From positions 1 through 64,000 of the forward strand of contig NZ_CP101155.1 in NCBI RefSeq assembly GCF_024298905.1: a stretch of 64,000 nucleotides of DNA, written 5' to 3'. Both the position numbers and the translations under genes were made by a program. The stretch is from Natronomonas marina. Lineage in GTDB: Archaea; Halobacteriota; Halobacteria; Halobacteriales; Haloarculaceae. Under the pieces are notes generated by a model. It saw only the letters and a program-made list of their open reading frames with translations, was not told the origin of the DNA and searched no databases. Positions 357 through 24,245 of this stretch are shown one piece after another (position 1 is the first letter of the stretch; every line of letters starts with the position of its first letter).

Positions 357-1157
357 ATGACGCAGATAATCGCCATCTCAAATCAAGCAGGTGGGGTCGG
401 AAAGACCACTACCACCATCAACCTCGGTGGTGCGCTCGCGAACCAAGGCCACGATGTCCTCCTCATCGATGCCGACCCGCAGGGAACCCTCACCGAAGGC
501 ACGGGCTTCCGTGACCTCTACGATCAGAAGATCCCGTCTCTCCACCAAGTGATGGTCGAACCAACACGCACCGAGGAGATCAATGAAATTATCGAGCATC
601 ACGACGAATTCGACGTCATTCCGTCCAATAAAGCAATGGACGGGCTCAAAGATATGCTCGTCACTCAGGTCGCAAACAGCGAAATGCGACTCAAAATTGC
701 CGTCGACGAGCTTGACCACGACTATGACTTCATCCTCATTGACTGCCCGCCTGATCTCAGTCAAATCCTTGATAATGCCCTCCTCACTGCCGAACAAGTC
801 CTCATCCCCGTTGAACCAACCCGACGTTCCATCCGTGCGATCGAGAAGATGAACGAAGAGATCGCCTATCTCTCAAACAGTTTCCCGGGCCAGATCGATA
901 CCATCGACATCCTTGGGATTGTCATCAACGCTGTCGAGAGCGTCCAGAACAACGATACCAAGCAGATGATCGAGTTCTTCAATGACGCTCCATACGACGT
1001 CTTCCAGGTCCCTGAGCGCGTCGCTATCCGGCGTGCTTGGAACAACGGCGTCTCTATCTTCCTTCACGAGGACGACGCGAAGACCGAGGACGCACGCGAA
1101 GCCTACACCGAGATCGCGAAAATGCTCGAACGTCACACTACGGAGGTGGAAGCATGA
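357..1157 (+). CDS. parA: ParA/Soj-type partition ATPase
   Basis: A ParA-family P-loop ATPase of 266 residues that would drive plasmid segregation together with the next gene. The deviant Walker A motif is at the N-terminus (SNQAGGVGKTTT, residues 7-18), followed by the A' motif LLIDADPQG and a Walker B-like FILIDCPPDL near residue 125. The reading frame extends upstream to 186, but that extension is made of the repeat array and low-complexity residues; the ATG at 357 puts the Walker motif at the normal distance and has a TATA box at about -26. The stop overlaps the start of the partner gene (ATGA). The second codons of parA contain one more CAGATA unit. Confidence 0.93.
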   Translation: MTQIIAISNQAGGVGKTTTTINLGGALANQGHDVLLIDADPQGTLTEGTGFRDLYDQKIPSLHQVMVEPTRTEEINEIIEHHDEFDVIPSNKAMDGLKDMLVTQVANSEMRLKIAVDELDHDYDFILIDCPPDLSQILDNALLTAEQVLIPVEPTRRSIRAIEKMNEEIAYLSNSFPGQIDTIDILGIVINAVESVQNNDTKQMIEFFNDAPYDVFQVPERVAIRRAWNNGVSIFLHEDDAKTEDAREAYTEIAKMLERHTTEVEA

Positions 1158-1726
1158 GCAGCAATGACGGCGACGACGAACTCGAGGAGCGGAAAAGCGA
1201 CGTTTGGAGTATGGACGAAGTTCGAGGCGGCGGTACAAAGACGAAAGACACAGAAGATACCTCAGATACAGCCGACGAAGAATCGGCATCCATTACGTCC
1301 AATACTGCGGAAGACGCAGACGCCCCAGATACGTCAGATACTTCAGATATAGAAGATACCTCTGACGACGAATCCTCGTCCGCCACGTCCGATGTCGAAG
1401 ATGCTGAAGATACGGCAGATACCTCAGATATACCAGACACGGCAGATGAGATCGACGACACTGCTATGCAAGCCGAGGGGGAGACTGTCCGGCAGATGGC
1501 CCTTGACGCAGACGCGAAGGGTCTTGTTGTTCGCGACCTTCACAATGTGAACGTCTATCTCTACGAAAGCGTCTATCAGGAGATGCGTGTGAAGTACAAG
1601 GAGCTCGATACCGAGTATTTCGCCGCACATGGCGAGGATCTCTCGAAGAACAAGGACTTCTTCAACGCCGTCTTTCGGGCCGGACTCCAGAGCCCTCAGC
1701 TGAAAGAAGAACTAGAACTCGACTAA
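1154..1726 (+). CDS. Acidic ParA partner (candidate centromere-binding protein)
   Basis: A 190-residue protein translationally coupled to parA (ATGA overlap) with a GGAGGTGG ribosome-binding site at 1142-1149. Residues about 1-115 are extremely acidic and contain repeated SDT/ADT/EDT tripeptides. Residues about 115-190 look folded, with several predicted helices, and could be the DNA-binding part. No ParB nuclease-like motif or clear helix-turn-helix was recognised. By position it should be the DNA-binding adaptor of the partition system. The tripeptides are encoded by the same 9-bp repeat found upstream of parA, so the gene itself may contain binding sites. A longer in-frame start at 1037 lies inside parA and is unlikely. 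Confidence 0.8.
   Translation: MSSNDGDDELEERKSDVWSMDEVRGGGTKTKDTEDTSDTADEESASITSNTAEDADAPDTSDTSDIEDTSDDESSSATSDVEDAEDTADTSDIPDTADEIDDTAMQAEGETVRQMALDADAKGLVVRDLHNVNVYLYESVYQEMRVKYKELDTEYFAAHGEDLSKNKDFFNAVFRAGLQSPQLKEELELD
1251..1449 (+). repeat. Intragenic 9-bp phased repeats in the parA partner gene
   Basis: AGATAC-type units recur in 9-nt phase inside the gene: about 1255-1264, 1327-1336-1345-1354 and 1399-1408-1417-1426-1435-1444. Nine bases equal three codons, so each unit encodes SDT, ADT, EDT or a near variant. The same unit occurs outside coding DNA at 32-346, which argues that the DNA sequence itself, and not only the peptide, is under selection. Confidence 0.75.
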
Positions 1727-1870
1727 CTGTCGCCGGCACTGCTTTTTGGCAAAGCAACAAAAGGGATTCAGCCGGTATCCCTCAGACCAGCGAGTCCGTA
1801 TATCGGCCAAATAAATAGACTATCAGACAGATATTTACGGATTTAACGAGTTAGTACCTCATATCCGATT

Positions 1871-2398
1871 ATGGCCAATCCCAACCGTCTGCTGCTGTTT
1901 ATGATAGCAGTAGAGGTATTTGGCATTCTTTCGATTCTTGGTGGTATTATGGATCTTCTCCCAGATAAAGGCCTGATCAGCGCGTCTGTTTTGATCAATA
2001 TAGGCGCGATCCTCATAGCACTCGGTGGCCTTGGTGTCGCCAAGATCTACGATGGAGAGACGTTGCTTGGAGATGGTGGCTACCCAGAACCAACGGGTGG
2101 CACTACATCTGGTACTCCAACACATACTCCTGCAGAAGTGGACGCCGAAGAAGGTGACGAGCAAGAAATTGAGGAGGAGAACCTCAGACCATATGAGGAA
2201 AAGCAGTCCATCTCCTCAGGGTCCGGCGCAACTCCGCGATTTGTGGTTAAAGCCGCCGTGAAGGAGCAACTGGCTGGTCACAACGTGTCCGCTGACTTCT
2301 ACGAGGCCCTCGATGAGGAAGTAGCCGAACTGATAGAGCAAGCTGCGCGACGTGCAGAAGAAGATAACAGGAAGACAGTCCAACCGAGGGACCTTTAG
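1871..2398 (+). CDS. Membrane protein with C-terminal histone-fold (DUF1931-like) domain
   Basis: A 175-residue protein. Two hydrophobic helices lie at about residues 6-29 and 35-58. They are followed by an acidic, threonine-rich linker (about 60-118) and a C-terminal segment (about 119-175) that reads like the small haloarchaeal histone-fold family (DUF1931/CBF-NFY type): VKAAVKEQL, NVSADFYEALDEEVAEL and the ending DRKTVQPRDL pattern, here NRKTVQPRDL. The fold assignment is from family recall. Histone-fold proteins bind DNA or dimerise, so a membrane-tethered DNA-associated role is possible. It lies just downstream of the partition genes and is separately transcribed or weakly linked (about 145 nt gap). 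Confidence 0.7.
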   Translation: MANPNRLLLFMIAVEVFGILSILGGIMDLLPDKGLISASVLINIGAILIALGGLGVAKIYDGETLLGDGGYPEPTGGTTSGTPTHTPAEVDAEEGDEQEIEEENLRPYEEKQSISSGSGATPRFVVKAAVKEQLAGHNVSADFYEALDEEVAELIEQAARRAEEDNRKTVQPRDL

Positions 2399-2544: not shown

Positions 2545-3834
2545 CTATTCGTCATCGACCAACACCGCCCCTGCGAAGAGGCCCTCAAGATCCTCTCGCA
2601 TCTCCTCACGGCGATGCCGGCGCTTCTCCGCTTCTGAGAGGTAGTTATCCAAGACGACTTCCGCCGACTTCGACCCCTGCTCCTCAGCGACATCCGCAAA
2701 CCGCTCGGCCACCCGGCGTACCGCCTCTCCGTACGCCGTGTACCAGTATCGTCGCCCCATCTTCGGCGTCGGAACCTCCCCATCGACAGTCACTCCAGCG
2801 CGTTCTGCGAGGTTCTTGAATCGACGTCGAACCGTCGACGTCGATAGGTGCCCGCTCTCCGCAGATGAAGACGGGAACACAGAGCCCATCCAGTCGTCGC
2901 CCGCCTCCTCAACGACGGTGTCGATCCGTGCGGTTGCATCTTCAACACCCGTGAGGAGTGCGACCGTCCCGGGTCCGTTTTTCCGCTCACTCCCGAATTC
3001 GATGTACGGTCCGGCCTCAGTGTCGTCTTCTGGTGGATCGAGAACCAGCTGGTCAACGCGTAGCGACGCAACCTCGCTCGGTCGAAGCCCCCACCCGCAG
3101 ACCCCAATCACGATGAGGCGGTCGACCGGATCGGTGGCTGTCTGATAGAGTGTTCGTATCTGATCAGCCTCAAGAGCCTGATTGTCCCACTCAGGCGTCG
3201 AATCCCACCCAAAGCGACGTTCCAGCTGGTCGGTCGGGTTGTGACGTGCGCCTTTGAACGTCACCTGATGGGTGTAGAACTGCCGAACTTCTTGAACATA
3301 CTTCCGTCGCGACGCGTGCGTTGTCAGCGTATCCTCGCGGCGACGCAGGACGTCGAACGTATCCGCGACACGATCCATCTCGTCGGCCCGCGCAGCGTCG
3401 TCGTGAAGTGGTTCGAGCAGATCATCGGTGCCATTGACGTCCTTGTACGTCCGGACGTACAGGCGGAGCGCAGAGCGGCGTGTGGCGACCGTCGACTCCG
3501 CCCGTCCCTGCCGATCGCGCAGCTCGACGAGATAGTCCTCGAGGGCTGCACACGTCTCGTCGTCGTCGACGAAATCAAACGGCCCCTCCTCCGGCTTGGA
3601 CTCAACCGGAACGTCGATCTTCTCGTAGAAGTCACCCGGTGAGAGGTCGAATCGCCGCGAGAGATGTTTGATGAACCCCGGAAAGTGCGATTCGAGCCAC
3701 GAATAGGTAGGGGCTTCGTGCTCAGGAGCAAGTGCCTCAGCGCGCATCTGCGGCGTGATCTCGTCGTGGTAGAAGGCCTCGGCGTCCTCGAGATCCATCG
3801 TGCTGTAGCGTGGGGTGTCGGTCGCCTCGGTCAT
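2545..3834 (-). CDS. Tyrosine recombinase / integrase
   Basis: A 429-residue site-specific recombinase. The N-terminal half (to about residue 200) fits a SAM-like core-binding domain. The catalytic domain follows, with the conserved Arg in CGWGLRPSEVASL (about 250), a second Arg region in PKMGRRYWYTAYGEAV (about 350), and the nucleophilic Tyr in VVLDNYLSEAEKRR (about 396). The usual HxxR box His appears to be replaced, as is common in divergent archaeal members. No tRNA gene or duplicated att core was found nearby, so it could resolve plasmid multimers or mobilise an element whose ends lie outside. It sits 26 nt downstream of the VapBC pair on the same strand. Confidence 0.88.
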   Translation of the reverse strand: MTEATDTPRYSTMDLEDAEAFYHDEITPQMRAEALAPEHEAPTYSWLESHFPGFIKHLSRRFDLSPGDFYEKIDVPVESKPEEGPFDFVDDDETCAALEDYLVELRDRQGRAESTVATRRSALRLYVRTYKDVNGTDDLLEPLHDDAARADEMDRVADTFDVLRRREDTLTTHASRRKYVQEVRQFYTHQVTFKGARHNPTDQLERRFGWDSTPEWDNQALEADQIRTLYQTATDPVDRLIVIGVCGWGLRPSEVASLRVDQLVLDPPEDDTEAGPYIEFGSERKNGPGTVALLTGVEDATARIDTVVEEAGDDWMGSVFPSSSAESGHLSTSTVRRRFKNLAERAGVTVDGEVPTPKMGRRYWYTAYGEAVRRVAERFADVAEEQGSKSAEVVLDNYLSEAEKRRHRREEMREDLEGLFAGAVLVDDE

Positions 3835-7175: not shown

Positions 7176-7349
7176 GGTACTGATATTCTCCGTTCTAGAC
7201 TAATAGAGCCTCACATACCACAGTCTGCTCTCTGTGAAGTTCCTTCTGCTCCTGAAGAGATATACAGCTAATGGACTCTATGACGTCTCGGGGGGTCAGT
7301 TGATGCAAAACCATTAGCGATGTCCCATCATAGCCCTCGGTACTGGACT

Positions 7350-8219
7350 ATGTACGAGGACATTCTCTTCCCGTACGATGGGAGCGACGGTGCATCAGCC
7401 ATCCTTGAGCACGCCGCTGACATCGCAGACTGGGTAGACGCCACGGTTCACGTCCTCTTTGTCGCAGACACGACGCGCGACTCCGTGACTGTCGTTGAGG
7501 GACGAACCGTCGACGCACTCGCACAGCAAGGCGAAACCACGGTCGAGGAAGCGGCGGATGCACTAACAGCCCGAGGTGTCGACTACGACACGGACGTCAT
7601 CCAGGGGAACCCAGCACCGACGATTGCCGAGTATGCAGAGCGATACGACTATGACCTGGTCGTGATGCCAACGCACGGTCGCGAGGGTCTCTCTCGCTAC
7701 ATCATCGGCAGTGTCACCGAGAAAGTCATCCGTCTGTCTTCGGTCCCGGTCCTGACGGCACGGATGCAACCCGACGAACGACTGGCGTTTCCGTATGAGA
7801 ATATCCTCATTCCAACGGACGGAAGCACTGGGGCGGTACATGCCGCTGAACACGGTCTGTCGCTCGCGGCGGCGGTTGATGCGACCGTTCACGCACTGTC
7901 GGTCGTGGACGACGCCTCACTCGGCTTGGACGTCCGCTCAGCAGCCTCTGAATCGGACGGTGAACAGGCCGCGACCGACGCTGTCGATGACCTGGGATCG
8001 GAAGCAGACTCGTATGGTGTCCGGAACACCGTCACGCACATCGAACACGGTGATCCTGCGGAGGAAATCCTCGAATGCATCGACTCGAATGACATTGACG
8101 CCGTCGTGATGGGGACCACGGGGCGACGTGGGACGGATCGAATCCTCCTCGGCAGCGTCGCGGAGAAGACAGCGCGGTCTGCACCGGTACCTGTCATTAC
8201 GGTCGCTAGGGAGTCGTAA
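7350..8219 (+). CDS. Tandem universal stress protein (UspA family)
   Basis: A 289-residue protein made of two Usp domains in tandem (about 1-140 and 150-289). Each has the ATP-binding loop G-2x-G-9x-GS: THGREGLSRYIIGSVTEK in the first half and TTGRRGTDRILLGSVAEK in the second. Haloarchaea encode many such proteins; they bind nucleotides and are linked to stress survival. The ATG at 7350 (MYEDILFPYDGS) is preferred over the one at 7320 because Usp domains begin with this strand and the extra ten residues look non-coding. It is monocistronic, followed by about 240 bases without a gene. Confidence 0.92.
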   Translation: MYEDILFPYDGSDGASAILEHAADIADWVDATVHVLFVADTTRDSVTVVEGRTVDALAQQGETTVEEAADALTARGVDYDTDVIQGNPAPTIAEYAERYDYDLVVMPTHGREGLSRYIIGSVTEKVIRLSSVPVLTARMQPDERLAFPYENILIPTDGSTGAVHAAEHGLSLAAAVDATVHALSVVDDASLGLDVRSAASESDGEQAATDAVDDLGSEADSYGVRNTVTHIEHGDPAEEILECIDSNDIDAVVMGTTGRRGTDRILLGSVAEKTARSAPVPVITVARES

Positions 8220-8457
8220 ACCACGGCCTTCAGTTGTATAGCCGTCACCGGGCGTCGCCTCAGCGATCGTGATTTTTTGCGTCGCCAAAGCCACAGCTGA
8301 GCAATTGTACAGTATGCCCTGTTCGTTGGGGGTCACTCGATGGAAGGCTCCAGCTCGTTCTCACCCCGTCGGCTACCGATGAACCATATTCTCCCTCCTG
8401 GTGTAGCCGTCAGTCGCTCACGTCTCCCAGTCGTGACGATTCGCGTAAATACCCGTC

Positions 8458-9054
8458 TTAGATGATGGTGATAACTCCGCCAAAGAAGCCTATCGTGACG
8501 ACAAGTCGGCCAAGACTACCGATGAACGTCGCGATTGCGAACTTCACATAATCTTCTTCGAGGATCGAAAACGCGTAGATCGACAGCGTATCCGGGAAGA
8601 AGGGTACACACAGCGCGAGCGCTAAGCCACCGTATCCGTACTGCCGAGCGAGCGTCATCGTCCGCCGTTCCGACCACTCGAGAATGTCGAACCGAGAGCG
8701 ACGTAACCACCGAACGACGGGCCCCGCGTGTTTCACCTCCTGACCGAGGTGAAACGCAACGAGACTACCAACGGCCTTTCCCGTCGCGCTTACGCCCATG
8801 ATGACACCCAACCGAGTCCAGAGGGGTAGCCCGAGATCGAGTGGTGCCGCAAGCACAACCTCGCTTGGGCCGGGAAGCGCGAATGCAATCAAAAACGAAT
8901 AGACGAAAATAATCCCCAATCCCGGCCAGCCCGTCGCGCTATCAATGGCGGCGTGGCCGTACTCCAGCAGTACGGTTGTAACCTCACTCAATGAGATGTA
9001 GAGTGGGCGCGGATTCGCGGAAAATCGGTTCACAACGGTGAGTGACGGATACAT
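8458..9054 (-). CDS. DedA/VTT-family membrane protein
   Basis: A 198-residue membrane protein with the VTT (SNARE-associated, DedA) fold: a hydrophobic segment at WPGLGIIFVYSFLIAFALPG, the family's re-entrant loop with the acidic residue in LPGPSEVVLAAP, and further helices with the loop PFFPDTLSIYAF. DedA proteins are thought to move or scramble lipids. The start at 9054 lies just after the stop of the upstream CNNM gene (9059), suggesting one operon. A longer frame to 9114 overlaps that gene and is less likely. Confidence 0.82.
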   Translation of the reverse strand: MYPSLTVVNRFSANPRPLYISLSEVTTVLLEYGHAAIDSATGWPGLGIIFVYSFLIAFALPGPSEVVLAAPLDLGLPLWTRLGVIMGVSATGKAVGSLVAFHLGQEVKHAGPVVRWLRRSRFDILEWSERRTMTLARQYGYGGLALALCVPFFPDTLSIYAFSILEEDYVKFAIATFIGSLGRLVVTIGFFGGVITII

Positions 9055-9058
9055 CTGG

Positions 9059-10468
9059 TTACTCACCGGTCGAACGCTCGACGGACAGTTTTTCTCGGGA
9101 TTCGGTTCCGCCACGCGATTGGGTGTCCACCTCTCCCGTTTGAATCCGAACTTGCGTTATGCGGGTCTGGTCAACTGATTCGACCCGTAGTCGAACCTCA
9201 TCACAGTCGAACGTTTCTCCCTGCTCGACTAACCTGCCCGCCCGATTAAACAGGAGTCCCGCGATCGTCTCGAACTCTTCCCCATCCGGCAGTTCTAGTT
9301 CGAGCGTCTCGTTGACCTCGCCAATGTCGACGTCTCCACGCACGAGCGCCGTCGTGTCGTCGAGTTCCGTAATCGGGGCTTGTTCCCGGCCTTCGAGGAT
9401 TTCACCGACAATCTCCTCCGTGAGGTCTTCGACCGTCACGAGTCCCTCCGTCGTCCCGAACTCGTCGATGACCACCGCCATCTGCGTTCGCGACGTCTGC
9501 ATCTCTTCGAGCAGTTCGTCGACGGACTTACTCTCAGGCATATGCTGGGGCGGGTCCAGTAGTTCGAGGTCGCCAACGAGCGTCTCTCCGGGAGTGCCAC
9601 GCTGCTGTGCCCGGGTCAGTTCGTGTATGTCTGCAGTTCCGACGATGTTGTCGAGCGTTTCTGCGTAGACAGGGAGTCGCCTGTGCCCGCTTTCGAGACA
9701 CTTGGTAATCGCATCGTGGAGCGTCTCCGTCTTCTCGATTCCAGTGATGTCCAACCGTGGAGTCATGACCTCCTTGGCGATCGTGTTTCGGAAGCGGAAG
9801 ATACGCTGAAACATCTCTCGTTCATCTTCGTCGATGACGCCCTCGCGCTCGCCCGTCCGAATCATCTCCTGGATCTCATCGCGAGTCACGTACGAGTCCT
9901 CGATTGCTGCTCGTCCGCCCGTCACGCGATTGACGAGCCGTGTGAGGTAATCGAACACGATGACGAGTGGGAACAAGATGTACTCGGCGAGTTTGAGCGG
10001 GCGTGCGATCCGGAGCGCCCACGATTCGGTGTTCTCGACAGCGTAGGATTTCGGGGCGCTTTCGCCGAATAGCAGAACGATTGCCGTAATCCCGAACGTT
10101 GAGATGAGCACCGCAGGACCCGGGTCGAAGTAGAAGCCGACGATGGCGGTCGATATCGAGGACATCGCGATGTTGACCAGATTGTTGCCCACGAGAATCG
10201 TCACAAGTAGTCGGTGGGGGTTCGACTTCAGATCGGCAACCGTGGTGGCACCAGGGCTGCCTTTTTCGACCAGTGCATCAATGCGGTGCTTGGCAAGCGA
10301 GAACAACGCAATTTCCGAGGACGAAAAGAACGCAGAGAGGACGAGGAGCACGAAGAGAACCACACTTCCAATGAGCGTGATCGACATCTCGGAGTAGAGA
10401 TTTCTGGAAGTGGCCTGGAGAGCATAGAATCCAATATCGAAGTGGGCTGTGTCGAGTGACGCTACCAT
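9059..10468 (-). CDS. CNNM/CorC-family transporter-like protein (DUF21-CBS-CorC)
   Basis: A full-length CNNM (CorB/HlyC-type) protein, linked to Mg2+ or other cation export. Order of domains: DUF21 membrane domain with the FSSSEIALFSL motif and three to four helices, a CBS pair starting at VMTPRLDITGIE and continuing through VIDEFGTTEGLVTVEDL, then the C-terminal CorC_HlyC domain. In-frame starts exist at 10552, 10468 and 10387; the last (MSITLIGSVV) gives the usual family N-terminus, while a TATA box at 10576-10583 would allow any of them. It is divergent from a second CNNM gene and followed immediately by the DedA-like gene. Confidence 0.9.
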   Translation of the reverse strand: MVASLDTAHFDIGFYALQATSRNLYSEMSITLIGSVVLFVLLVLSAFFSSSEIALFSLAKHRIDALVEKGSPGATTVADLKSNPHRLLVTILVGNNLVNIAMSSISTAIVGFYFDPGPAVLISTFGITAIVLLFGESAPKSYAVENTESWALRIARPLKLAEYILFPLVIVFDYLTRLVNRVTGGRAAIEDSYVTRDEIQEMIRTGEREGVIDEDEREMFQRIFRFRNTIAKEVMTPRLDITGIEKTETLHDAITKCLESGHRRLPVYAETLDNIVGTADIHELTRAQQRGTPGETLVGDLELLDPPQHMPESKSVDELLEEMQTSRTQMAVVIDEFGTTEGLVTVEDLTEEIVGEILEGREQAPITELDDTTALVRGDVDIGEVNETLELELPDGEEFETIAGLLFNRAGRLVEQGETFDCDEVRLRVESVDQTRITQVRIQTGEVDTQSRGGTESREKLSVERSTGE

Positions 10469-10575
10469 ATACCTACGTTGCTCATTGTTTAACAAGCTGG
10501 TATAGCCCTTCTGATGGATCAAACGTGAGAGGGTGCCATTAGTTTCAATCACCGAATTTCGCTGAGATTCCTGTG

Positions 10576-10583
10576 CTTATATA
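10576..10583. promoter_or_regulatory. Shared TATA element of the divergent CNNM genes
   Basis: The nearly symmetric box cttatata lies about 26-33 nt upstream of the ATG at 10609, the leaderless spacing, and about 25-30 nt ahead of the longest start of the minus-strand CNNM gene. Only about 56 bases separate the two longest frames, so the promoters must overlap and the genes are probably co-regulated. Confidence 0.5.
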
Positions 10584-10608
10584 CCACCTGATCCAGTAGC
10601 GTGGGGTA

Positions 10609-11673
10609 ATGACCCCGCTTGAGCTGACGCTCCGCCTAGTTGCTGGCGTTCTCCTCATACTGACCAACGGCTTTTTCGTAGCGATCGAGTTCGCGTTGAC
10701 ACGAGCGCGTCAATTTAGTGAAGCGGAATTCGTCGACGGAAATCCGACTCTCGAACGGGCCTGGGAGATGACGAATAATCTGGAGATCTATCTGACCACG
10801 TGCCAGGTTGGTATTACGGCCTCCAGTATCGCAGTCGGGATCGTAGCCGAGCCGGCTCTCGCCGCGCTCTTCGAACCGTACTTTGCCAATACCGCACTGG
10901 CGTCCATCGGTGCAGGTGCGATCATCGCCTTTGCGATCATCAATCTCCTGCATCTCACCCACGGCGAGCAGACACCGACGTATCTCGGCGTTGAACGCTC
11001 CCGGATGGTGTGTCGGTACGGGGCCACACCTCTGTACTGGTTCAATTGGCTTATCTCTCCGCTCATTACATTCGGCGACTGGATCGCCAAGGCCACGCTC
11101 AAGCTGTTCGGCGTCGAGATGACCGGTGCGTGGCTCGAAACCGAAGAAGAGGTCCTCGAATCACGAGCCCAGCTCCGCAATCGCCTGCACTCGCTTCTCG
11201 AAGAGGGCGAACTTCCGGAGGAGCGCCGCGACGAAGTCCTTGGCGCACTCGACATCGACGAACTCTCGATCAGCGAGATTATGGTTCCAGCAGACGACAT
11301 TATCTCCCTCTCAACCACCCGCTCAGTCGACGAGAACTTTGATTGCATCCGAAACACGCCACACACCCGATTTCCACTAGTTGGTGAGGAGCTGACCGAC
11401 TTCCACGGAATCGTGTACGCACCGTCGATCATCGACCACTATGAGGATCTCGTAGACAGCGACATCTCCTTCAAAGAGATCGCGGCCCCTCCAATGACAC
11501 TCGCGGCGGAAACGAACGTCAGCGATGCATTCGATCAGTTCCAGGCCGAGGACCAGGAACTCGCGCTCGTCCTCGAAGATGGTGACGTCGTGGGACTCCT
11601 CACCGCAACCGACGCTCTGGAAACGGTAATGGGCGAACTCGAAGACCCGCTCGACCAGCAGGTGTCGACCTGA
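10609..11673 (+). CDS. CNNM-family protein lacking the C-terminal CorC domain
   Basis: A 354-residue DUF21-CBS protein. The membrane domain has the NGFFVAIEFALTRAR motif and about four hydrophobic segments to about residue 165. A CBS pair follows (SEIMVPADDIISL to LALVLEDGDVVGLLTATDAL). Unlike its divergent neighbour it ends after the CBS pair, so it lacks the CorC_HlyC domain; this shorter form also exists in the family. The pair may act together in cation handling. The TATA box sits about 29 nt upstream, so the transcript is probably leaderless. Confidence 0.9.
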   Translation: MTPLELTLRLVAGVLLILTNGFFVAIEFALTRARQFSEAEFVDGNPTLERAWEMTNNLEIYLTTCQVGITASSIAVGIVAEPALAALFEPYFANTALASIGAGAIIAFAIINLLHLTHGEQTPTYLGVERSRMVCRYGATPLYWFNWLISPLITFGDWIAKATLKLFGVEMTGAWLETEEEVLESRAQLRNRLHSLLEEGELPEERRDEVLGALDIDELSISEIMVPADDIISLSTTRSVDENFDCIRNTPHTRFPLVGEELTDFHGIVYAPSIIDHYEDLVDSDISFKEIAAPPMTLAAETNVSDAFDQFQAEDQELALVLEDGDVVGLLTATDALETVMGELEDPLDQQVST

Positions 11674-11720
11674 ACTGATATAACGGAGATGTGAAGGTCG
11701 TTAGAACCTCCTTGCCGTAC

Positions 11721-12008
11721 CTACTCGATCTCGAGACTCCCAGAGTTGCCCTCGCCGCCCTTACTGTTCTCGTCCCATTCAAGTTCGAACTCGATGCTCA
11801 ATTCTCCAGGGCCATCAGTCGGTCCTTCGCGTTCGGCTTTCACTTCGAATGTCGGCCGTGCTGGAGGATCCATCGTGACGGACTCTGCCCCCGATTTCAG
11901 GGTGATCGGACCTCCCTGTTCGAGCTTTTCGGCGACGCTCCGGAGGTACGACGCGATTTCGTCCCGGCTCTGGGCGCTTTCGGATTTGAACAGCACTTCT
12001 TCGGGCAT
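11721..12008 (-). CDS. Amphi-Trp domain protein
   Basis: A 95-residue acidic protein that matches the haloarchaeal amphi-Trp family throughout: MPEEVLFKSE at the start, then SRDEIASYLRSVAEKLEQGG, a central GAESVTMDPP, and the closing LSIEFELEWDE. The function of the family is not established. The ATG at 12008 gives the standard start; a longer frame to 12059 adds unlikely residues. Convergent with the preceding CNNM gene. Confidence 0.8.
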   Translation of the reverse strand: MPEEVLFKSESAQSRDEIASYLRSVAEKLEQGGPITLKSGAESVTMDPPARPTFEVKAEREGPTDGPGELSIEFELEWDENSKGGEGNSGSLEIE

Positions 12009-12074
12009 ACACCACGCTCTACATTTCCTGCTCGGATAAGTGGCCCTCTCATCTAGCAAAGGGAATCCGCCGCC

Positions 12075-12209
12075 CTAAGCCAGATGTGACACGTCTTCTA
12101 GCTCCTCGAAGTCGTCAAACTCGCCACACTCGACCGGCTCCCAGTCCTCTCTGGGTGCTGGACTCCACCAGTCGACCTCGTAGGCACCCGGTGCGCCGAG
12201 GAACTTCAC
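12075..12209 (-). CDS. Short acidic protein or gene fragment
   Basis: From a GTG at 12209 the frame encodes 44 residues, rich in Trp, Glu and Asp (VDWWSPAPREDWEPVEC). The composition is typical of real haloarchaeal coding sequence, but no family is recognised. It may be the 3' remnant of a larger gene whose 5' part was displaced, since the same frame continues upstream into the htpX promoter. Confidence 0.35.
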   Translation of the reverse strand: MKFLGAPGAYEVDWWSPAPREDWEPVECGEFDDFEELEDVSHLA

Positions 12210-12281
12210 TGACGTAGCAATAGATGATCTAATCGTTATGTAGTAACCGGGTTTATAAGACTGACTTCGTAACCAACCCGT

Positions 12282-13445
12282 ATGAGACATTTCGGGCTCA
12301 AGATCCGGATGGCATTCGTCGGTGCTATCCTCGCAGCGTTCTATCTCGTCGCTGTTGCTGTCGCGATGGTGGTGTTCGGCCAGGGAATCCTCCCGATCGC
12401 CATCGTCGGCAGTCTCCTCCTCATCGGCATCCAGTACAAAATCGGGAAGTGGGCTGCCTTACGAAGCGTCGGTGCCGAGGACCTCTCCGAGACCCAGTAC
12501 TCGCAGATTCACCAGTTCGTCGAGCAGGTCTGCCGCGACAAGAATATGAAGAAACCGTCGCTGAAGATCGCCAGCATGGGCGTACCGAACGCGTTTGCGG
12601 TTGGCCGTCGCGGCAACGGTACCGTCGTCATCTCTCGGGAACTCATCCAGCTGCTCGACCGCGACGAACTAGAGGGCGTCATCGCCCACGAAATCGCCCA
12701 CATCGACAACCGCGACGTCATCACGATGCAACTCGGACAGGGCATCGCCTCGATCGTGGCGATCGTCGCGCAGTTCGCTGTCCTGTTCACGGGCGACAAC
12801 GACCTCGCAGACTTCTTCCTCGCCATCGTCGTCGGCAACAAATCTGTGATGGTGGCATTAACCAATCCACAACTGGCAACGGAGGGGATTGCTGAGAGTG
12901 ATAACTACCGGCTTGCCACAGAAACAGATATGCGTGCACGCGAGCAGGAATGTCTCCGAAGTTCATACTTTAGACAGGAGTCGAAGGCGAACGCCTCAAA
13001 ACTCCGCAACCGACTCGCAGAAGCCATCATTGAGGGGAACCTTCCGAATCCACATGCGTCCACCAGTACGAGTACCGTTGCTGACGAACTGAAGACTAGT
13101 GGCGAAGAATACGCATATCTGACGAACTTCTACAAGTTCGCGACAACTGGATTTGATGGCGATTCCTCGCCAAATCTCTCCGGACATGTCGACTGGTTCG
13201 ACGCAGAACTCTCAGCACTGAATTCCGACTATCTTGTTGGGCTTGGTGCTCCACTGTGGGACAACTACCTCAGGTCCAGAGTTGAGCCCCATGCTGCGAG
13301 CGCAAATCTCGATAAATCGACCATCGAAGCTTCGAGTGTCAGTGACGAGATAATCATCGGCAATCGATTTACCCTACCAGCGCACGATGTGACCGTCATT
13401 CCGGGTCGTCATCCGCAGGCAATGGAGACCGGAGAACTCGTCTAG
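12282..13445 (+). CDS. HtpX-like M48 metalloprotease with replaced C-terminal half
   Basis: Residues 1 to about 187 are a normal haloarchaeal HtpX N-terminus: two N-terminal membrane helices, the zinc motif HEIAHIDNRD (about residues 137-146) and a third helix. After VVGNKSV (about nucleotide 12845) the expected HtpX continuation, including the third zinc ligand Glu, is missing. It is replaced by about 200 residues of unrelated, lower-GC sequence with no recognised family. The HExxH is intact, but without the downstream Glu ligand proteolysis is doubtful. A TATA box (tttataag) about 25 nt upstream supports the start. A recombination-made chimera is my preferred explanation, given the IS debris that follows. 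Confidence 0.75.
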   Translation: MRHFGLKIRMAFVGAILAAFYLVAVAVAMVVFGQGILPIAIVGSLLLIGIQYKIGKWAALRSVGAEDLSETQYSQIHQFVEQVCRDKNMKKPSLKIASMGVPNAFAVGRRGNGTVVISRELIQLLDRDELEGVIAHEIAHIDNRDVITMQLGQGIASIVAIVAQFAVLFTGDNDLADFFLAIVVGNKSVMVALTNPQLATEGIAESDNYRLATETDMRAREQECLRSSYFRQESKANASKLRNRLAEAIIEGNLPNPHASTSTSTVADELKTSGEEYAYLTNFYKFATTGFDGDSSPNLSGHVDWFDAELSALNSDYLVGLGAPLWDNYLRSRVEPHAASANLDKSTIEASSVSDEIIIGNRFTLPAHDVTVIPGRHPQAMETGELV

Positions 13446-13662: not shown

Positions 13663-14160
13663 TCAACTCCGCTGGTGCCACTGACCTAAGCCACTCGGAG
13701 AGAGGAGATCTCGGATTTGTTGTAGTGACACGTGATGTGTCACAGCAGCCATGTAGCCCATCGCTTCATCGCGCTGGCGGAGGCGATGCCAGCTCGCGGC
13801 CAGATCCATGTCGGCCAGTCGCTCCACCGACCCCGCTGCCGTTCGCGCGACCGCCCACCGATACCCGTCGGTGATGATGCCAATCTCACCATCCTGCGGA
13901 TTCCAGAGGTGGGCCGATTCCCCGAGTGCATCTCTTACTTGCTGCCAGCGAGCGGGCGAGAGGCAGGTGACGGTCACAGTGCATGTCTCGTTGGTGTACG
14001 TGACCGTCCACTCCCGGACGTCTCGGTCGCGCTGCCACTCCTCCCATCCGACAGCGGTGAGAACGGGATGAACGAGGTGAAGCCAGATCTGCCACGGTGT
14101 TGTCGGGCGTGTGGGTGCGGTCGCGAGCGCGACCAGGAGTCGCGCTCGCGTGGCCTGTCC
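13663..14160 (-). pseudogene. Truncated Trp-rich hypothetical gene
   Basis: The minus strand of 13663-14160 encodes about 165 residues with coding-like composition (PWQIWLHLVHPVLTAVGWEEW, then EWTVTYTNETCTVTVTCLSP). The frame stays open through the neighbouring IS1595 remnant, but that part is only the antisense of the transposase. The gene has therefore lost its 5' end at about 14160. No family is recognised. Confidence 0.5.
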
Positions 14161-14162
14161 AC

Positions 14163-14592
14163 GCGTGGCCGAGGATCGTACGACGGCGATAAACCGCCGG
14201 TGTTTACGCTGGCCGATCGTGGTTCTGGCGACCGGTACGTCGTGCCAGCGAAATCCGCCGACGAATCGACGATTCGACTCCTGCTTGCTGACCACGACGA
14301 GGAGTCGCTGACCGTCTATACGGACGGATTTCGGGCCTACGATCCGCTCGAAGAAGACGACGCTTTCACCCGCAAATACGTCGTCCACGGCGATGGAGAA
14401 TACGCTGACGGCGACATCCACGTCAATACCTGCGAGAGCCACGCGTCGCTGACGCGACGGTGGCTCTCGCCCCACCGAGGAGTGTCAAAAGACAAACTAA
14501 CACCGTATCTCAGAGCCTTTCAGCTCCGGCAAGAACTCTACAGAAAACCAGGTGACGAAGCACTCAAACATGCTCTCGACGCTGCCCTCTGA
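14163..14592 (+). pseudogene. IS1595-family transposase, 3' remnant
   Basis: The last about 140 codons of an ISXO2-type DDE transposase: GSYDGDKPPVFTLADRGSGD with the first catalytic Asp region, then SLTVYTDGFRAYDPL, NTCESHASLTRRWLSPHRGV and the Tyr/Lys-rich end. It matches haloarchaeal IS1595 transposases closely but lacks the zinc-ribbon N-terminal half. The 5' boundary abuts the truncated minus-strand gene at about 14160. Followed by an 11-base T run. Confidence 0.8.
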
Positions 14593-14637
14593 AAATCAAC
14601 AACGTGCTTCACAAGAGCGTTCCTTTTTTTTTTTCTC

Positions 14638-14958
14638 CCAATTCAAAGAGTACGTCACCGCCTTCCACGCCGAACATATCATGCTTATATTAAGTGAAGA
14701 GTTCGAAGATGACCTGCTCGTGGTGCTGGATGAAGCGCTGTACTTCTAGGCGTCGGCCGTCACGGACCTAACCACCCGTGACCCCGCCTTCGTGACGTTA
14801 CCGGCTATTCGCTAGAACTGAACCCGGTCGGAGAGTGCTGGAGACAGCTTCAAGCGTCTCTTAGCAACCGCCTCTTTAAGTCACTCGACGAGCTGACAAC
14901 AGCGATTGATACAGCTCTCGACCAACTCTCTATTCCAAAAGTGAGTAGCTATTTCTAA
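14638..14958 (+). pseudogene. IS630-family transposase, 3' remnant
   Basis: EFEDDLLVVLDEALYF at 14700-14748 matches the DDE block of haloarchaeal IS630 transposases. An in-frame stop follows, then ASAVTDLTTRDPAFVTLP, a further stop and a frame change, and finally LFKSLDELTTAIDTALDQLS and KVSSYF ending at 14958. Several stops and shifts make it dead. Confidence 0.75.
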
Positions 14959-14997
14959 TGACTACTATAGTGATTGGGTGAGACGCTCCAGTCGTTC

Positions 14998-15199
14998 GGT
15001 TAGTGTTCACACTGGTGAATTACCTGTTGCGGAATCTGTGGCTGATTGCCCGCTGGGGCGGGCGAGCACTATCCGTCTGCTTTGAGGTATTCTGGAGGTG
15101 GATCGACCACGCCCTCGATGAGATGCTTCGTCGGAAGTGGGAAGTTCTGACCGATGGTGTTGGGGTTCCTACGATATATAGCCTACTGAACGGGGGGTC
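14998..15199 (+). pseudogene. C-terminal fragment of a DDE transposase
   Basis: LVNYLLRNLWLIARWGGRALS followed by WIDHALDEMLRRKWEVLTDG and VGVP resembles the C-termini of haloarchaeal transposases (pattern LRNLW..RW, GGR, WI.H.L...LRR.W). No N-terminal part is present. Identification is from pattern recall. From 15200 to 15374 no gene is seen. Confidence 0.4.
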
Positions 15200-15374
15200 A
15201 GTCACTCCACATCCAGTTGTAGCTCTCTGGAGAGCGACCGCTTTGACTCTCACATGTGACGACTGTGCTCTCACTACTGTGAGACAACCATCTCCGCATC
15301 CGTCGTCCAAGTTTCTGGGAGGACCCAACCTCTCTTCCCCGGAAAATCGAGTTAGCCGTCAGGAACGATGTGAA

Positions 15375-16124
15375 CTAACGATAATAGAGTTCGACTTCAA
15401 TAACATTTGCGGCCTCTAACAAAGAGTCAATAATGTCCTTCTGGTGTGACTTCTTAGCAGGGACATACATTGATATTGCGCCCGCGACTTCTCCACTCTC
15501 TGAGTCAGTGATTGCTGTTCCTATTCCTTGTAATCCGATACCAATCTCCTCGCGATCAATTGCGTATTCTTGGTTTCTTATGTTTCTCAGTTCGCTTTGT
15601 AACTCATTTTCATCAGTAATAGTCTGGTCAGTAACCGCTGCAAGCCCCCGAGATTCAATTATGTCCTCTACTTTTTCTTCTGGGGAATGGGCGAGAATTG
15701 CTTTTCCAGGTGCAGCTGAATGAAGAAGAAAATGTGTTCCTTCGTGGATTAGTGCGTTCTGCATATTCTCTCCGCTTACTGTATAAAGGACAACACCGTA
15801 TCCGCGTTCTTCGATAGTCAGTACTACTGGTGCACCTTTTGAGGTAGCGAGATCTCTAAGTACCGGTCTAGCCGTTCGAAACAACTCATTTCGTTTCCGT
15901 CGGTTTCCTCCCAGGTTCAAAAATTTGTGACTCAGACAATATTCACCATTCAAATTGATGACATAACCTTCCTCTGTGAGGGTCCGTAAATAATCGTGGA
16001 CAGTGCTTCGGTTCATCTCTAGCTCATCAGCAAGCTTCGTAGCTGTTAGATTGCTGAACTCCGAGAGTAGTTGGATTATATCGAATGCGGTTCGGACCGA
16101 CTTTATCGATTTTGAGGAGGTCAT
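15375..16124 (-). CDS. IclR-family transcriptional regulator
   Basis: A 249-residue regulator. Residues about 5-65 form the winged helix-turn-helix (LATKLADELEMN-type segment: LTATKLADELEMNRSTVHDY), and residues about 75-249 the IclR effector-binding domain (GENMQNALIHEG, FLLHSAAPGKAILAHSPEE, GLQGIGTAI). The ATG at 16124 is chosen because a TATA box (16145-16153) lies about 25 nt upstream, giving a leaderless transcript; the frame runs open to 16253. An inverted repeat directly upstream of the TATA box recurs twice at about 20 kb. IclR regulators bind small metabolites and often control catabolic genes, so it may govern the CoA-thioester genes that follow. Confidence 0.88.
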   Translation of the reverse strand: MTSSKSIKSVRTAFDIIQLLSEFSNLTATKLADELEMNRSTVHDYLRTLTEEGYVINLNGEYCLSHKFLNLGGNRRKRNELFRTARPVLRDLATSKGAPVVLTIEERGYGVVLYTVSGENMQNALIHEGTHFLLHSAAPGKAILAHSPEEKVEDIIESRGLAAVTDQTITDENELQSELRNIRNQEYAIDREEIGIGLQGIGTAITDSESGEVAGAISMYVPAKKSHQKDIIDSLLEAANVIEVELYYR

Positions 16125-16144
16125 GTGGAATTCTATCAGTGGTG

Positions 16145-16153
16145 AATATTTAA
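16145..16153 (-). promoter_or_regulatory. TATA box of the IclR gene
   Basis: Minus strand ttaaatatt, centred about 25 nt before the ATG at 16124. The adjacent 17-bp inverted repeat covers the expected BRE position. Confidence 0.5.
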
Positions 16154-16154
16154 G

Positions 16155-16171
16155 TGTTGATGATGTCGACA
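16155..16171. promoter_or_regulatory. Candidate IclR operator, copy 1
   Basis: TGTTGATGATGTCGACA is an imperfect inverted repeat immediately upstream of the IclR-gene TATA box. It differs by one base from the copy at 20008-20024 and is closely similar to the one at 20113-20129. Autoregulation by the adjacent regulator is inferred. Confidence 0.55.
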
Positions 16172-16335
16172 AGGCAGTGTTTAGATACTTGAGTTCAAAC
16201 GCTGGATGATTATCAAATATACTAGCAACAGCAGACGAACTTATACTGGTCACACTATCGATGTTCGGTTAACACTGGCAGTAATATTTCCAAGGTGGAT
16301 GCCACCCTGACCTCAGCAGCTGAAATCGGTAGTGT

Positions 16336-16970
16336 TCAGATAAGTTGGTTCCATGCGAAAGCGAACGCTTGAAGCCAATTTTCGACGCTGCTTGCTTTGG
16401 AGTGGCTGAAGCAGTTTGAGAACTGGTTTGTTCGTCGTTTTAGTTCTTGAAAGACACGTTCGACGCTGTTCCGATTACCATGTTTTTCGTATCTGTAATT
16501 GAGGCCGTATCGGTGCAGTGTTGCTTGCAGCCACGGTGCAGAATCGACGAGAACGACCGCGTCGTCGACGAGATATTTGTCGCGGAGTTCAATAAGAAAT
16601 ATCTCGATAATCGCTTGATTTCTAGTCGGAGAAAGCTTGACGTTCAGCAAGCGGTTCGTGTTGGAATCGACAGCAGCGTACAGCCAGGACCGTTCGTCGT
16701 TCAGCTGGATCACGGTCTCGTCAACCGCGACATGATCCGGGTTCGCGCCATCGAGCGGCTGTAGTTTGGCCTTTTACACCCAGTTGTGAACGGTTGTTCG
16801 ACAGCGTTTGACACCCAATATGTCAAGAATTGAACTATAATAGAATGTGATAGTCAGGCCAGATGGAGTCGGATACCGAGCTTCTTCGCGGGTTCGGGTG
16901 TCGCCTCTCGCTCCAGAAAATCTAACTCGAAGCAGGCGCTACCTCTGATGAGGCGGGCGATTTCTGGCAT
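16336..16970 (-). pseudogene. IS6-family (ISH14/ISH15-type) transposase, decayed
   Basis: Starting at the ATG at 16970, the minus strand reads MPEIARLIRGSACFELDFLE and KLGIRLHLA, the typical N-terminus, then an in-frame stop. After frame changes it continues through VKRCRTTVHNWV, another stop, VAVDETVIQLNDERSWLYAA (first DDE Asp), AVVLVDSAPWLQATLHRYGL and YEKHGNRNSVERVFQELKRR, and ends FAFAWNQLI. A terminal-repeat-like ggtagtgttcagataagtt lies at 16328-16346; the partner end was not found. Confidence 0.85.
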
Positions 16971-17546
16971 TGACCACTAGAAGTTCGCTCCGCCTCACTC
17001 TTCATCCTTATTCGAACACCGCCTAGAATCTTGCTTTCGGCTATTTGGTCGCCTGCAGTTAGAGTTCGAGACTTGGCAAATCGGCACTTACTGCCTTAAT
17101 CCTACTTCGGGGGTTTAATCTTGATCCGTCCGAGCCACTGTAAAATCGATCGAATGTACTGTATCCACCGAGCTGAGCAACTGACGTTTGCCCGAGCGAA
17201 CACATCTGTTGAGCGGAAGAAATACCCGTTAGTTTGCTGAATGACTGGTACTGCTTCGGACGGCAAGCGGCATCTTTCGTTCGGATACGGCTGAATCACG
17301 GTTCTATCGCCTATTTGGACTTGAGTAGCTGAACCGCGGAAGTAAGATTAACCGAACACAAATGGCCAGCTCCGGGAATCATCCTGGTGTTCGCCATCTC
17401 GAACACCGAACCGTTGTTTGAGCTTCTATAACCGTGACTTAACAACTATTCAACGCAGCACGACAATCTACGAGAAAAAATTCTAACGGTTACTATAGAA
17501 CGGATGGCCCCCATCTTGTCCCAACAGAAACTCACGGCTTCATTTA
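16971..17546. other. Intergenic region without a convincing gene
   Basis: About 575 AT-richer bases between the dead IS6 copy and the acyl-CoA dehydrogenase. A 65-codon minus-strand frame (17102-17299) has no recognisable family. Probably degraded IS or displaced sequence. Confidence 0.35.
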
Positions 17547-18689
17547 TTAATGGAAAAGTTGCTCTGCGATGGTGTTCCGGAGGACCTCGCTGGTGCCCTC
17601 GTAAATCTCGTTGAGCTTCGCGTCGCGGTAGTAGCGCTCCACGGGGAAGTCCTTCGTGTAGCCGTAGCCGCCGTGGATCTGGATGCCCTCATTGGCGACC
17701 TCGCGGCTCACCTCGCTCGCGTAGAGTTTGGCCTGTGCGGCCTCCTTGATGAAGTTCTCCCCGCGAATCTTCTTGTCGGCGGCGTCGTGCATCAGCAGGC
17801 GCGCGGCGCGGGTCTTCGTGTCCATGTCGGCGAGTTTGTGCTGGATGGACTGGAAGTTCGAGATGGGCTGGTCGAACTGCTCCCGGTCCTGGCTGTACTC
17901 GAGGGCGGCGTCGAGCGCGGCCTGTGCGATGCCGACCGAGCGGGCAGCGATGGTGATGCGCCCGCCGTTGAGTGTCTTGAGCGCGTGGACGAACCCGCGG
18001 CCTTCCTCGCCGAGCAGCCGGTCCTCGGGAATCCACATGTCGTCGAACCGGAGTTCGGCGGTCGGACAGCCCTTGTCGCCGACCTTGTCCTCCGTCCCCT
18101 CAACGATGAAGCCGTCGTCCTCCTCCGGGCGGACGACGAACGAGGAGATGCCCTTGTTGCCGGCGTCGGGGTCCGTCTTCGCGAACAGCGTGACGGTGTC
18201 CGCGACCGAGCCGTTCGAGATCCAGAGCTTGTTGCCGTTGACGAGGTAGCCGTCGCCGTCCTTCTCGGCGGTCGTCTCCATCGCGGGGACGTCGGAGCCG
18301 GCGCCCGGCTCGGAGAGAGCGAACGCGCCGATGTCCTCCCCCTCCGCGAGCGGGGTGAGGTACTCCTCCTTCTGGGCTTCGTCGCCGAAGGCGTACACCA
18401 TGTTGCCGGCCAGCGAGATGTGCGCGGCGACGATGGTGCCGAGGCCGCCCGAGCCCCGGGCGATCTCCTCGAGCGCCATCGGGTAGCTGTGGTAGTCGAG
18501 GCCGGCGCCGCCGTACTCCTCGGGGAACGGCATCCCCATCAGCCCGAGGTCGGCGAGTTCGTCGACGAGGTCCCTCGGGAACTCGTCCTCGTGGTCGATT
18601 TCCGAGGCCCGCGGGACGACCTCCTCGTCCACGAACTCGGAGACCATGTCCTTGATTTGCTTCTGCTCCGGCGAGAGACTGAGATGCAT
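17547..18689 (-). CDS. Acyl-CoA dehydrogenase
   Basis: A 380-residue FAD-dependent acyl-CoA dehydrogenase that would catalyse the first, alpha-beta desaturating step of beta-oxidation. It shows the family landmarks: [14 protein letters not shown], the FAD-contact [68 protein letters not shown] and the catalytic Glu region IYEGTSE near the C-terminus. The ATG at 18689 (MHLSLSPEQ) is chosen; the frame runs open further upstream through an IS fragment. Its GC content is higher than the surrounding genes, so it may have a different origin from the other pathway genes. Confidence 0.93.
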
Positions 18690-18765
18690 GAATCTAAATG
18701 CAGAGGGCTTCATGATATATCTTAATATAACGTCGAACGTGTGATAAACTCTATCAATGCTTTGA

Positions 18766-18880
18766 GCATCTCCCAGCCAAGTTTTCTCCGCGTTCATAGT
18801 TGGTGATTGCGACGACGAGTCGAAAGGACAGCGTAAGAAACCGGCAAGCGAGTCGAGTGTCACGTGCATCGCCCTCTTCT
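18766..18880 (-). pseudogene. Short transposase C-terminal fragment
   Basis: The minus strand reads [20 protein letters not shown], homologous to the end of the neighbouring IS copy on the opposite strand (SLGLVVAITNSERGNE at 19920-19960). Only about 35 codons survive, just upstream of the acyl-CoA dehydrogenase. Confidence 0.6.
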
Positions 18881-18952
18881 GAGGCTTGTTTGCTCTCGGT
18901 GACCTCGGCTGCAATCAGACTGGTCGATCCGGTTGAACGATTGGAGAGCTGT

Positions 18953-20004
18953 AGAGCGTGTCATAGAAAGCGTCACGTACGAAGTAGCAGGGGGCGCGAA
19001 GTGTGTCCAACACAAGCGCAACCCTGCAAGACGTAGCTTCGGTAGACGACTTCTTGAATGTCGCGGCTACCGAGACGGTACCGCTGTTCGAGCACCTTGA
19101 GTTCGAGTTTCTGCTGGAGTACGATGTGTTCGCCCCCTCGAAGCGTGGGCGAACACGAGTTCACCAGCCACCAGACCTCTTTCGCGGCTTTCTGCACTGC
19201 TACTACAAGGACATCTACGGCACACGTCCGGTTGCACGAGAACTCCAGCACGGCCTCGTCTGGTACTACTGCAGACTCGACAAACCACCATCCAGAGACA
19301 CGATTGACCGGTTTCTCACTGACCTTGAACACGTCGTCGACGATATCTTTGAGAGGCTCGTCGAGCAGGCCGCCGCCCGCAGCCTGCTCGACTCGACGTA
19401 CTCCATCGATTCGGCGCACATCGAGGCGGTCCAGTACAACGACGCTGCCTCATGGAACTACGATCTAACAACTGAAGAGTACTACTACGGCTTCGGCTGT
19501 ACGATCGTCTCAACCGGTTCAAAGATCCCAATTGCGGCGGAGTTCACACAGGCCAAACAAGCAGACCAAGAGACGGCGATGCGCGTCACGTGTGACGCGC
19601 TCGCCGTCGATACACCGATCTGGATGCTTGGAGACAGCGCCTACGACATCCTCGATTGGCACGACCACCTGCTGGCCGCAGGGGTCGTGCCAATCGCTCC
19701 ATACAATCCGCGAAATCCTGACGACCCGAAAGCCATCGAGTACAGGGTCGAAGACCAAGTCGAGGATGTTCAGCTGAAAATCCATCTTGGACGAGACGTA
19801 TAACAACCGGATAGGGGTCGAACGAACCAGCGACGTAGTCAAGGACTGCGGCCTCGGGCTCGCGCGAGCCCGAGGCCGCGTCCACGCACGAACAGAAGTG
19901 TTCCTTGCGCTGTCCCTCGGACTCGTTGTTGCGATCACAAACTCCGAGCGAGGAAACGAACCGGGCTGTGAGAAGCTATGAGATGGATTCTATGGCACGC
20001 TCGT
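18953..20004 (+). mobile_element. IS element with inverted repeats and target duplication
   Basis: A 1.05-kb element. Left end (A)GAGCGTGTCATAGAA at 18953-18968 is matched by the inverted right end TTCTATGGCACGCTC at 19988-20002 (14 of 15 bases). AGCTGT flanks both sides (18947-18952 and 20005-20010), a probable target duplication. The right copy joins directly onto a candidate operator at 20008, so the element landed in regulatory DNA. Confidence 0.7.
19003..19981 (+). pseudogene. IS4/IS5-superfamily transposase with a 2-base frameshift
   Basis: Intact to about 19780: SLLDSTYSIDSAHIEAVQYN (first DDE Asp), then TPIWMLGDSAYDILDWHDHL (second Asp). The frame then ends at 19803. The correct continuation, ILDETYNNRIGVERTSDVVK with RGRVHARTEVFLALSLGLVV, lies in another frame from 19787 to 19981. 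The break fits loss of two bases between CTGAAA and ATCCATC at about 19782, where relatives read KQS. Repairing it would give a normal transposase of about 325 residues. Confidence 0.82.
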
Positions 20005-20007
20005 AGC

Positions 20008-20024
20008 TGTTGATGATATCGACA
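20008..20024. promoter_or_regulatory. Candidate IclR operator, copy 2
   Basis: TGTTGATGATATCGACA, 16 of 17 bases identical to the copy next to the IclR promoter (16155-16171). It lies immediately right of the IS insertion and overlaps the AGCTGT target duplication, so its original promoter context has been disrupted. Confidence 0.5.
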
Positions 20025-20058
20025 ATAGTAGCTTAGAGATTTCTCATCTATGGGCATA

Positions 20059-20084
20059 GAATAACAAATGTACTATTGTTATTC
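20059..20084. repeat. Inverted repeat between two operator copies
   Basis: GAATAACAA and TTGTTATTC form a perfect 9-bp-arm inverted repeat with an 8-base spacer. It could be a regulator site or a hairpin; it has no T-rich tail typical of a terminator. Confidence 0.4.
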
Positions 20085-20112
20085 CACAGATTCACCCCCC
20101 GACCATAGCTGG

Positions 20113-20129
20113 TGTTGATAATATCAACA
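20113..20129. promoter_or_regulatory. Candidate IclR operator, copy 3
   Basis: TGTTGATA-A-TATCAACA is a perfect inverted repeat and the most symmetric of the three copies. It is 105 bp from copy 2. No start codon of a convincing gene lies close by in either direction. Confidence 0.5.
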
Positions 20130-20523
20130 ATCTAGGGTCCGACCATTGTTGTAGTGAGCCTATTCGCTGCCATCAGACGATGCGCAAATTAGTCTTTAGT
20201 AATACGAAGGGGGTGCGACCTGATGCGGTATTCAATCCACCCCCTGTGGTATTAGTTAAAATGGCTGTGATGAATCGTCGGACGTAGTTTAATTTCACTA
20301 TGCCACCGCCTGCCTGATGTTGTGAACCGTACATATCAGGTCGAGTTCGCGGAACTTTCCGTATATTTTTCGTGAAGCGGGGGATCTTTGACATAATCAT
20401 CGGCGGTTTCCCGCTTTATCTCCCTAGTTCTAACGGTAGAAACCGACGCTATCCAGCGATTCACCGGGACCGAATTCGTTAGTATCCACCAGTCAATATT
20501 CGTGCAGTTCCGTCGGGGCCTCT
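20130..20523. other. Intergenic region with IS debris
   Basis: No intact gene. On the minus strand at 20299-20361 one frame reads YGKFRELDLICTVHNIRQAV then A and a stop, which looks like a transposase C-terminus; the upstream part is out of frame. The remainder holds nothing recognisable. Confidence 0.4.
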
Positions 20524-22497: not shown

Positions 22498-22750
22498 TTT
22501 TTCACCGTGATTAAGATGTCTCCGCCGGCCTTGTTATAATTTTCCCTAGTCTCTAATGCTTCATCGGTCATTGGTTGGCTCTATTGCTCTTCCGAGGCCT
22601 CTCACAATACCATAGGAAAATCACGTTCTAGTGGTTTAATCTCATTCGAGGTACTACCGGGTGCTGCTGGTGATGTAGTGGAAAGTGCGATCTTCGGTGG
22701 GCTTCTAGAGGGCATGAAACAGCCGGCAGAGAAGAGGACTCGACGCGCTA

Positions 22751-24045: not shown

Positions 24046-24245
24046 TTTGGGAACTTCACCTGCGAGGATGTGATGAGCCAGTCGGCGTCACCGACTGGCC
24101 CGTCTCGTCAGCACGGTCTCTCGAAAGGAGCAGCATAGCGTCCCGAAACGAGCAGAAACAGGGCGACTGCGCGTTCCCCCAATGGATACTGCACCACCGC
24201 ATTACCGGCCAAACACTTATATGCACAGCATCAATTTGGGAGCGT

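Follow-up and report, generated by a model that had tools for sequence, protein, structure and literature searches.

A membrane-anchored FtF histone predicted from one reading frame on a haloarchaeal plasmid

Near the left end of a 64,000-nucleotide stretch of Natronomonas marina DNA (NCBI RefSeq assembly GCF_024298905.1, contig NZ_CP101155.1; hereafter the window, with which a contig of 147,277 bp begins), a single open reading frame of 175 codons at 1871-2398 on the forward strand, from ATG to TAG, encodes a protein that joins two hydrophobic helices and an acidic linker to a C-terminal histone of the FtF (alpha3) type. We read this product, tentatively and with slightly less than even confidence, as an FtF histone tethered to the membrane and assembling together with the free FtF histones of its cell. 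That it is expressed as a fusion, lies in the membrane as predicted, mixes with free histones, binds DNA and tethers it is what we infer; the architecture itself is read directly.

Against haloarchaeal FtF histones the C-terminal 52 residues (124-175) reached 77% identity, the best matches having E-values of about 1e-16 or better, and FtF matches occurred in 378 of the 392 genomes of the order. Identity to the 55-residue FtF alpha3 histones carried by nearly all haloarchaea ranged from 58 to 77%, the FtF family profile recognized this part of the protein at E 5.7e-14, and the crystallised FtF histone HTkC (PDB 9F2C) matched it directly by sequence (E 2.9e-5). A model of the domain placed alpha1 at residues 122-134 and alpha2 at 141-169 (full-protein numbering), and its top fold match was 9F2C, albeit a weak one (E 0.42). 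The third helix is truncated: the protein stops at RDL, the same end point as in the 55-residue copies, and the low-confidence model of the full-length protein calls a helix (HHH) at 172-174, a very short alpha3. These AlphaFold models were built from single sequences (mean pLDDT 58.7 and 71.0), and a fold search with the full-length model was uninformative.

Residues K131, R161, R167, T169 and D174 are the equivalents of K11, R41, R47, T49 and D54 in Haloferax D4GZE0, and all are kept; these five and N45 are named by Schwab et al. 2024 (PMC11390915), and K11, R47, T49 and D54 are among the positions reported to contact DNA or to lie in the L2 loop. A DUF1931/CBF-type histone fold had been proposed for this segment in a first-pass annotation. 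The fold stood and the label did not fit: Pfam DUF1931 (PF09123) and CBFD_NFYB_HMF both matched below their gathering scores only, the former at 14.4 bits for a cut-off of 21.8 and over profile positions 20-53 of 138. The domain thus belongs with the alpha3/FtF histones, which databases label DUF1931, and not with the Pfam DUF1931 pseudodimer family. The ratio pN/pS of the histone part against standalone copies was ~0.2, and no FtF relatives were found in phages or viral contigs.

The N-terminal part agrees with the two membrane helices and acidic linker that the first-pass annotation had described. Kyte-Doolittle hydropathy averaged over 19 residues peaks at 2.39, and the full-length model forms helices at residues 4-29 and 38-60. 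The model assigns no secondary structure to linker residues 61-120, and residues 67-120 carry a net charge of -12. Because R6 lies before the first transmembrane helix (TM1), K58 after the second (TM2), and the loop has a net charge of -1, the charges favour a predicted hairpin with both ends inside the cell (N-in/C-in). Searches of plasmids, the 392 genomes of the order, IMG/VR and genome contigs returned no relative of the membrane part besides an identical plasmid copy; the weak matches, on inspection, came from low-complexity or threonine-rich proteins or from unrelated ones with multiple TM helices (e.g., L056).

Whether these parts form one product must be weighed against another possibility, which we consider unlikely: that translation from an internal GTG at 2243 yields an ordinary 51-residue FtF histone and that the upstream frame is an orphan, either independent of it or decayed. 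RefSeq annotates this short protein (WP_254841556.1) on the sister plasmid, and all other FtF histones seen are standalone. However, the upstream frame carries about as much in-frame coding signal as the histone part (0.24 bits per codon over residues 1-123 and 0.30 over residues 124-175, compared to -0.28 to -0.41 in the forward off-frames and 0.12-0.51 for training genes), and no stop codon separates the two. A TATA-like box was looked for upstream of the GTG and none was there; in standalone FtF genes an AT-rich, TTTATA-like box precedes the ATG at -31 to -26. The 51-residue product would also begin too late to include the conserved opening residues of alpha1.

Comparison of ~100 FtF loci bears on the same question. 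Every other copy has its own Met start, no more than seven residues from the fold, and the fused membrane part was confined to this gene and an identical copy on the Halorarius halobius plasmid NZ_CP101163.1. The standalone start MxDLIVK reads TPRFVVK in the fusion, with loss of the histone start codon, and in a phylum-wide profile search nearly all matches aligned from position 1, the fusion from position 3. The second assembly carries the gene at 100% DNA identity with its frame intact, so a sequencing error does not account for the open frame. The one-frame fusion noted at first pass is therefore favoured over the GTG start on the basis of the coding score, the lost histone Met, the missing box at the GTG and the identical intact frames, which make translation of the full-length product plausible, though not proven. 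Other candidate FtF fusions with long open frames all have a standalone Met start, their upstream frames being chance high-GC sequence, and a weak match in G182 turned out to be a histone that is soluble and, with its two folds, resembles a pseudodimer.

A tethered FtF histone would act as follows. The two-helix hairpin would insert into the cytoplasmic membrane and leave both of its ends in the cell, and a flexible acidic tether of ~60 residues would bear a normal FtF histone domain. This domain would dimerise and enter FtF tetramers, its partners being further copies of the fusion or the cell's free FtF histones, and DNA occupied by such mixed tetramers would be held near the membrane. The genome contains three free FtF genes, two on the same plasmid and one chromosomal. 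One of the plasmid-borne histones, ~75 kb along (L162, 2015-2182), is divergent: it has QSKIREHL in place of KAAVKEAL, so that Q stands where alpha1 otherwise has K7, and R where it has K11. The fusion might anchor plasmid DNA to the membrane, as the first-pass annotation had raised; that plasmid maintenance would benefit is speculation. A broader idea, that a DNA-competent, membrane-anchored FtF histone links haloarchaeal chromatin or an FtF-wrapped plasmid to the membrane, a nuclear-lamina-like tether made from histone, we hold to be rather unlikely.

Several observations weigh against a membrane-tethered, co-assembling FtF histone. At the dimer-dimer interface the fusion has D165 in place of the near-invariant N45, with N166 adjacent, and the other 18 of 18 aligned copies have N; this substitution might weaken tetramer formation, N45 being one contact residue of several in a family defined by its fold and its tetramer. 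DNA might also face competition from the acidic linker. The fusion occurs in one plasmid lineage only, and its membrane part has no homologue; conservation therefore lends the fusion itself no support, and the pN/pS of the histone part reflects mostly the time before fusion. The TATA-like element upstream of the ATG is weak.

Two further explanations appear improbable to us. The product could be a membrane-bound regulator or sink that pairs with free FtF histones while its linker shields the DNA face, lowering the amount of free histone or silencing FtF-bound plasmid genes. The net charge of the linker directly before the fold, the D165 replacement and the several free partners in the cell would all suit such a role, whereas the retained DNA-contact residues would not, and haloarchaeal proteins commonly have acidic segments as a matter of course. 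Alternatively, the gene could be a recent accidental fusion without function, carried as passive plasmid cargo, as its single lineage and orphan N-terminal part would suggest; the frame, however, is intact in two hosts and pN/pS of the histone part is low.

Table 1. Positions of the fusion gene, its parts and neighbouring features in the window.
Feature	Coordinates	Strand	Basis
Whole gene: 175-aa fusion of two TM helices, acidic linker and FtF histone	1871..2398	+	Open reading frame, coding score, identical copy in NZ_CP101163.1
Predicted membrane hairpin, residues ~4-29 and 38-60	1880..2050	+	Hydropathy, AlphaFold (AF2) helices, charges
Acidic linker, residues 61-120, probably unstructured	2051..2230	+	No secondary structure in model; net charge
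FtF (alpha3) histone domain, residues 121-175	2231..2395	+	Similarity searches, profile, alignment, models
RefSeq alternative call on sister plasmid, 51 aa, GTG start, WP_254841556.1, judged less likely	2243..2398	+	Annotation
Weak TATA-like TTTAAC, 29 bases upstream of ATG	1842..1847	+	4/6 match to TTTATA, chance ~0.16
parA, ATG at 357, 266 aa; neighbouring gene	357..1157	+	Pfam AAA_31 1.5e-43; annotated ParA in sister plasmid
orf2, parA-linked hypothetical, possible centromere-binding protein	1154..1726	+	PHROG 26668 (unknown function) 7e-11
Tyrosine recombinase gene	2545-3834	Opposite to fusion gene	

The fusion gene lies ~145 bp downstream of a parA-orf2 pair (357-1726), on the same strand, and is followed by the recombinase gene. 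This placement would fit a dedicated plasmid-partition part acting with ParA and orf2, the role implied when the first-pass annotation placed the gene beside the partition genes, and a standalone FtF gene of Halococcus dombrowskii also adjoins parA (NZ_CP095008; L157 1757-3156, ~400 bp away and divergent). Related modules argue otherwise. In the closest, on Salinigranum rubrum NZ_CP026312, the order is the same (79% identity for parA, 54% for orf2 and 39% for the integrase), and the 127 bp from orf2 to the integrase hold no histone gene; nor do the ~90 bp between the parA-linked hypothetical and the integrase of Natronosalvus NZ_CP101157. Among 17 plasmids with both genes, considering the best parA match per plasmid only, the FtF gene is at least 5 kb from parA in 15 and less than 2 kb away in two, the window's plasmid type and that of H. 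dombrowskii. Given these modules and distances, the parA neighbourhood is suggestive at most, and a partition-specific role for the fusion, so far unsupported, is very improbable. The gene looks to have been inserted into, or lost from, an existing parA-orf2-integrase module.

The neighbours have features of their own. Across 16 haloarchaeal plasmids the N-terminal half of orf2 is acidic and rich in repeats, and conservation is better in its C-terminal half (~residues 87-190); a Pfam search assigned it to no family, and it is a possible centromere-binding partner of ParA. Direct CAGATA repeats occur on the forward strand at 39-370, before parA, and at 1261-1432, within the orf2 coding sequence, where they encode DTSDTSD; they are often phased by 9 bp (41/50, 102/111, 214/223/232, 288/297, 1326/1335/1344 and 1416/1425). 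The Salinigranum module has CAGATA too, before parA, in parA and in orf2 (L137 6003-6066, 6615-6624 and 6969-7113), and Natronosalvus repeats another motif, AAACGAA, before parA. The CAGATA repeats are a candidate partition site or set of iterons, partly embedded in coding sequence.

The 148.7-kb H. halobius plasmid NZ_CP101163.1 matches the first 25 kb of the window at ~100% identity, with 99% of that length covered, and 357-25000 is ~99.9-100% identical between these plasmids of two haloarchaeal genera. Plasmids of Halorientalis, Haloglomus and another Haloferacaceae archaeon share parts of it (14119-25000 and 7278-12840) at 99-100% identity. Such near-identity across genera points to recent exchange between them.

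How FtF histones act in haloarchaea is so far a model, its mechanism not established. A natural membrane-fixed FtF subunit would offer a handle on whether FtF histones mix, on whether DNA is held by them in vivo and on whether chromatin proteins can fix archaeal DNA to the membrane. The case also suggests that a fusion can be masked when short genes are called automatically.

Known histones resemble the fusion in separate respects. Pfam DUF1931 histones (PDB 1WWI, 1R4V) share its histone fold and database label; they are two-fold pseudodimers without the signature residues of DNA binding (PMC12701072), whereas the fusion has a single fold that falls below the Pfam cut-off. Rab-GTPase and ZZ alpha3 histones, like the fusion, join an alpha3 histone to another domain, and the Rab-GTPase histones likewise have an FtF-like fold at the C-terminus (PMC11390915). 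Both differ in fused domain and hosts, with no membrane helices described.

Schwab et al. 2024 (PMC11390915) report transmembrane histones as a minor category in which no DNA-binding residues could be identified, with FtF histones a separate family. They too join a histone fold to transmembrane helices, and that description sets them apart from the fusion, which keeps the FtF DNA-contact residues. Beyond that report, the literature on archaeal membrane histones yielded nothing further and no FtF-membrane fusion, with the Schwab supplementary sequences outside the comparison. The first-pass annotation's impression of an undescribed arrangement is accordingly supported in part: histones with membrane helices had been reported, and no FtF one was found among those described. 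As far as this literature extends, a membrane-anchored FtF histone with DNA-contact residues is a new variant, and an earlier example in the Schwab supplement is conceivable.

With the FtF alpha3 histones (Haloferax D4GZE0/HVO_0196; Thermococcus HTkC, 9F2C) the fusion shares a very short alpha3, the RxTxxxxD motif and the alpha1 K, as well as a plasmid location, which is common among FtF histones (PMC11390915). It differs from them in an N-terminal extension of ~120 residues that holds the two membrane helices, in the loss of the start Met and in the change of the interface N to D.
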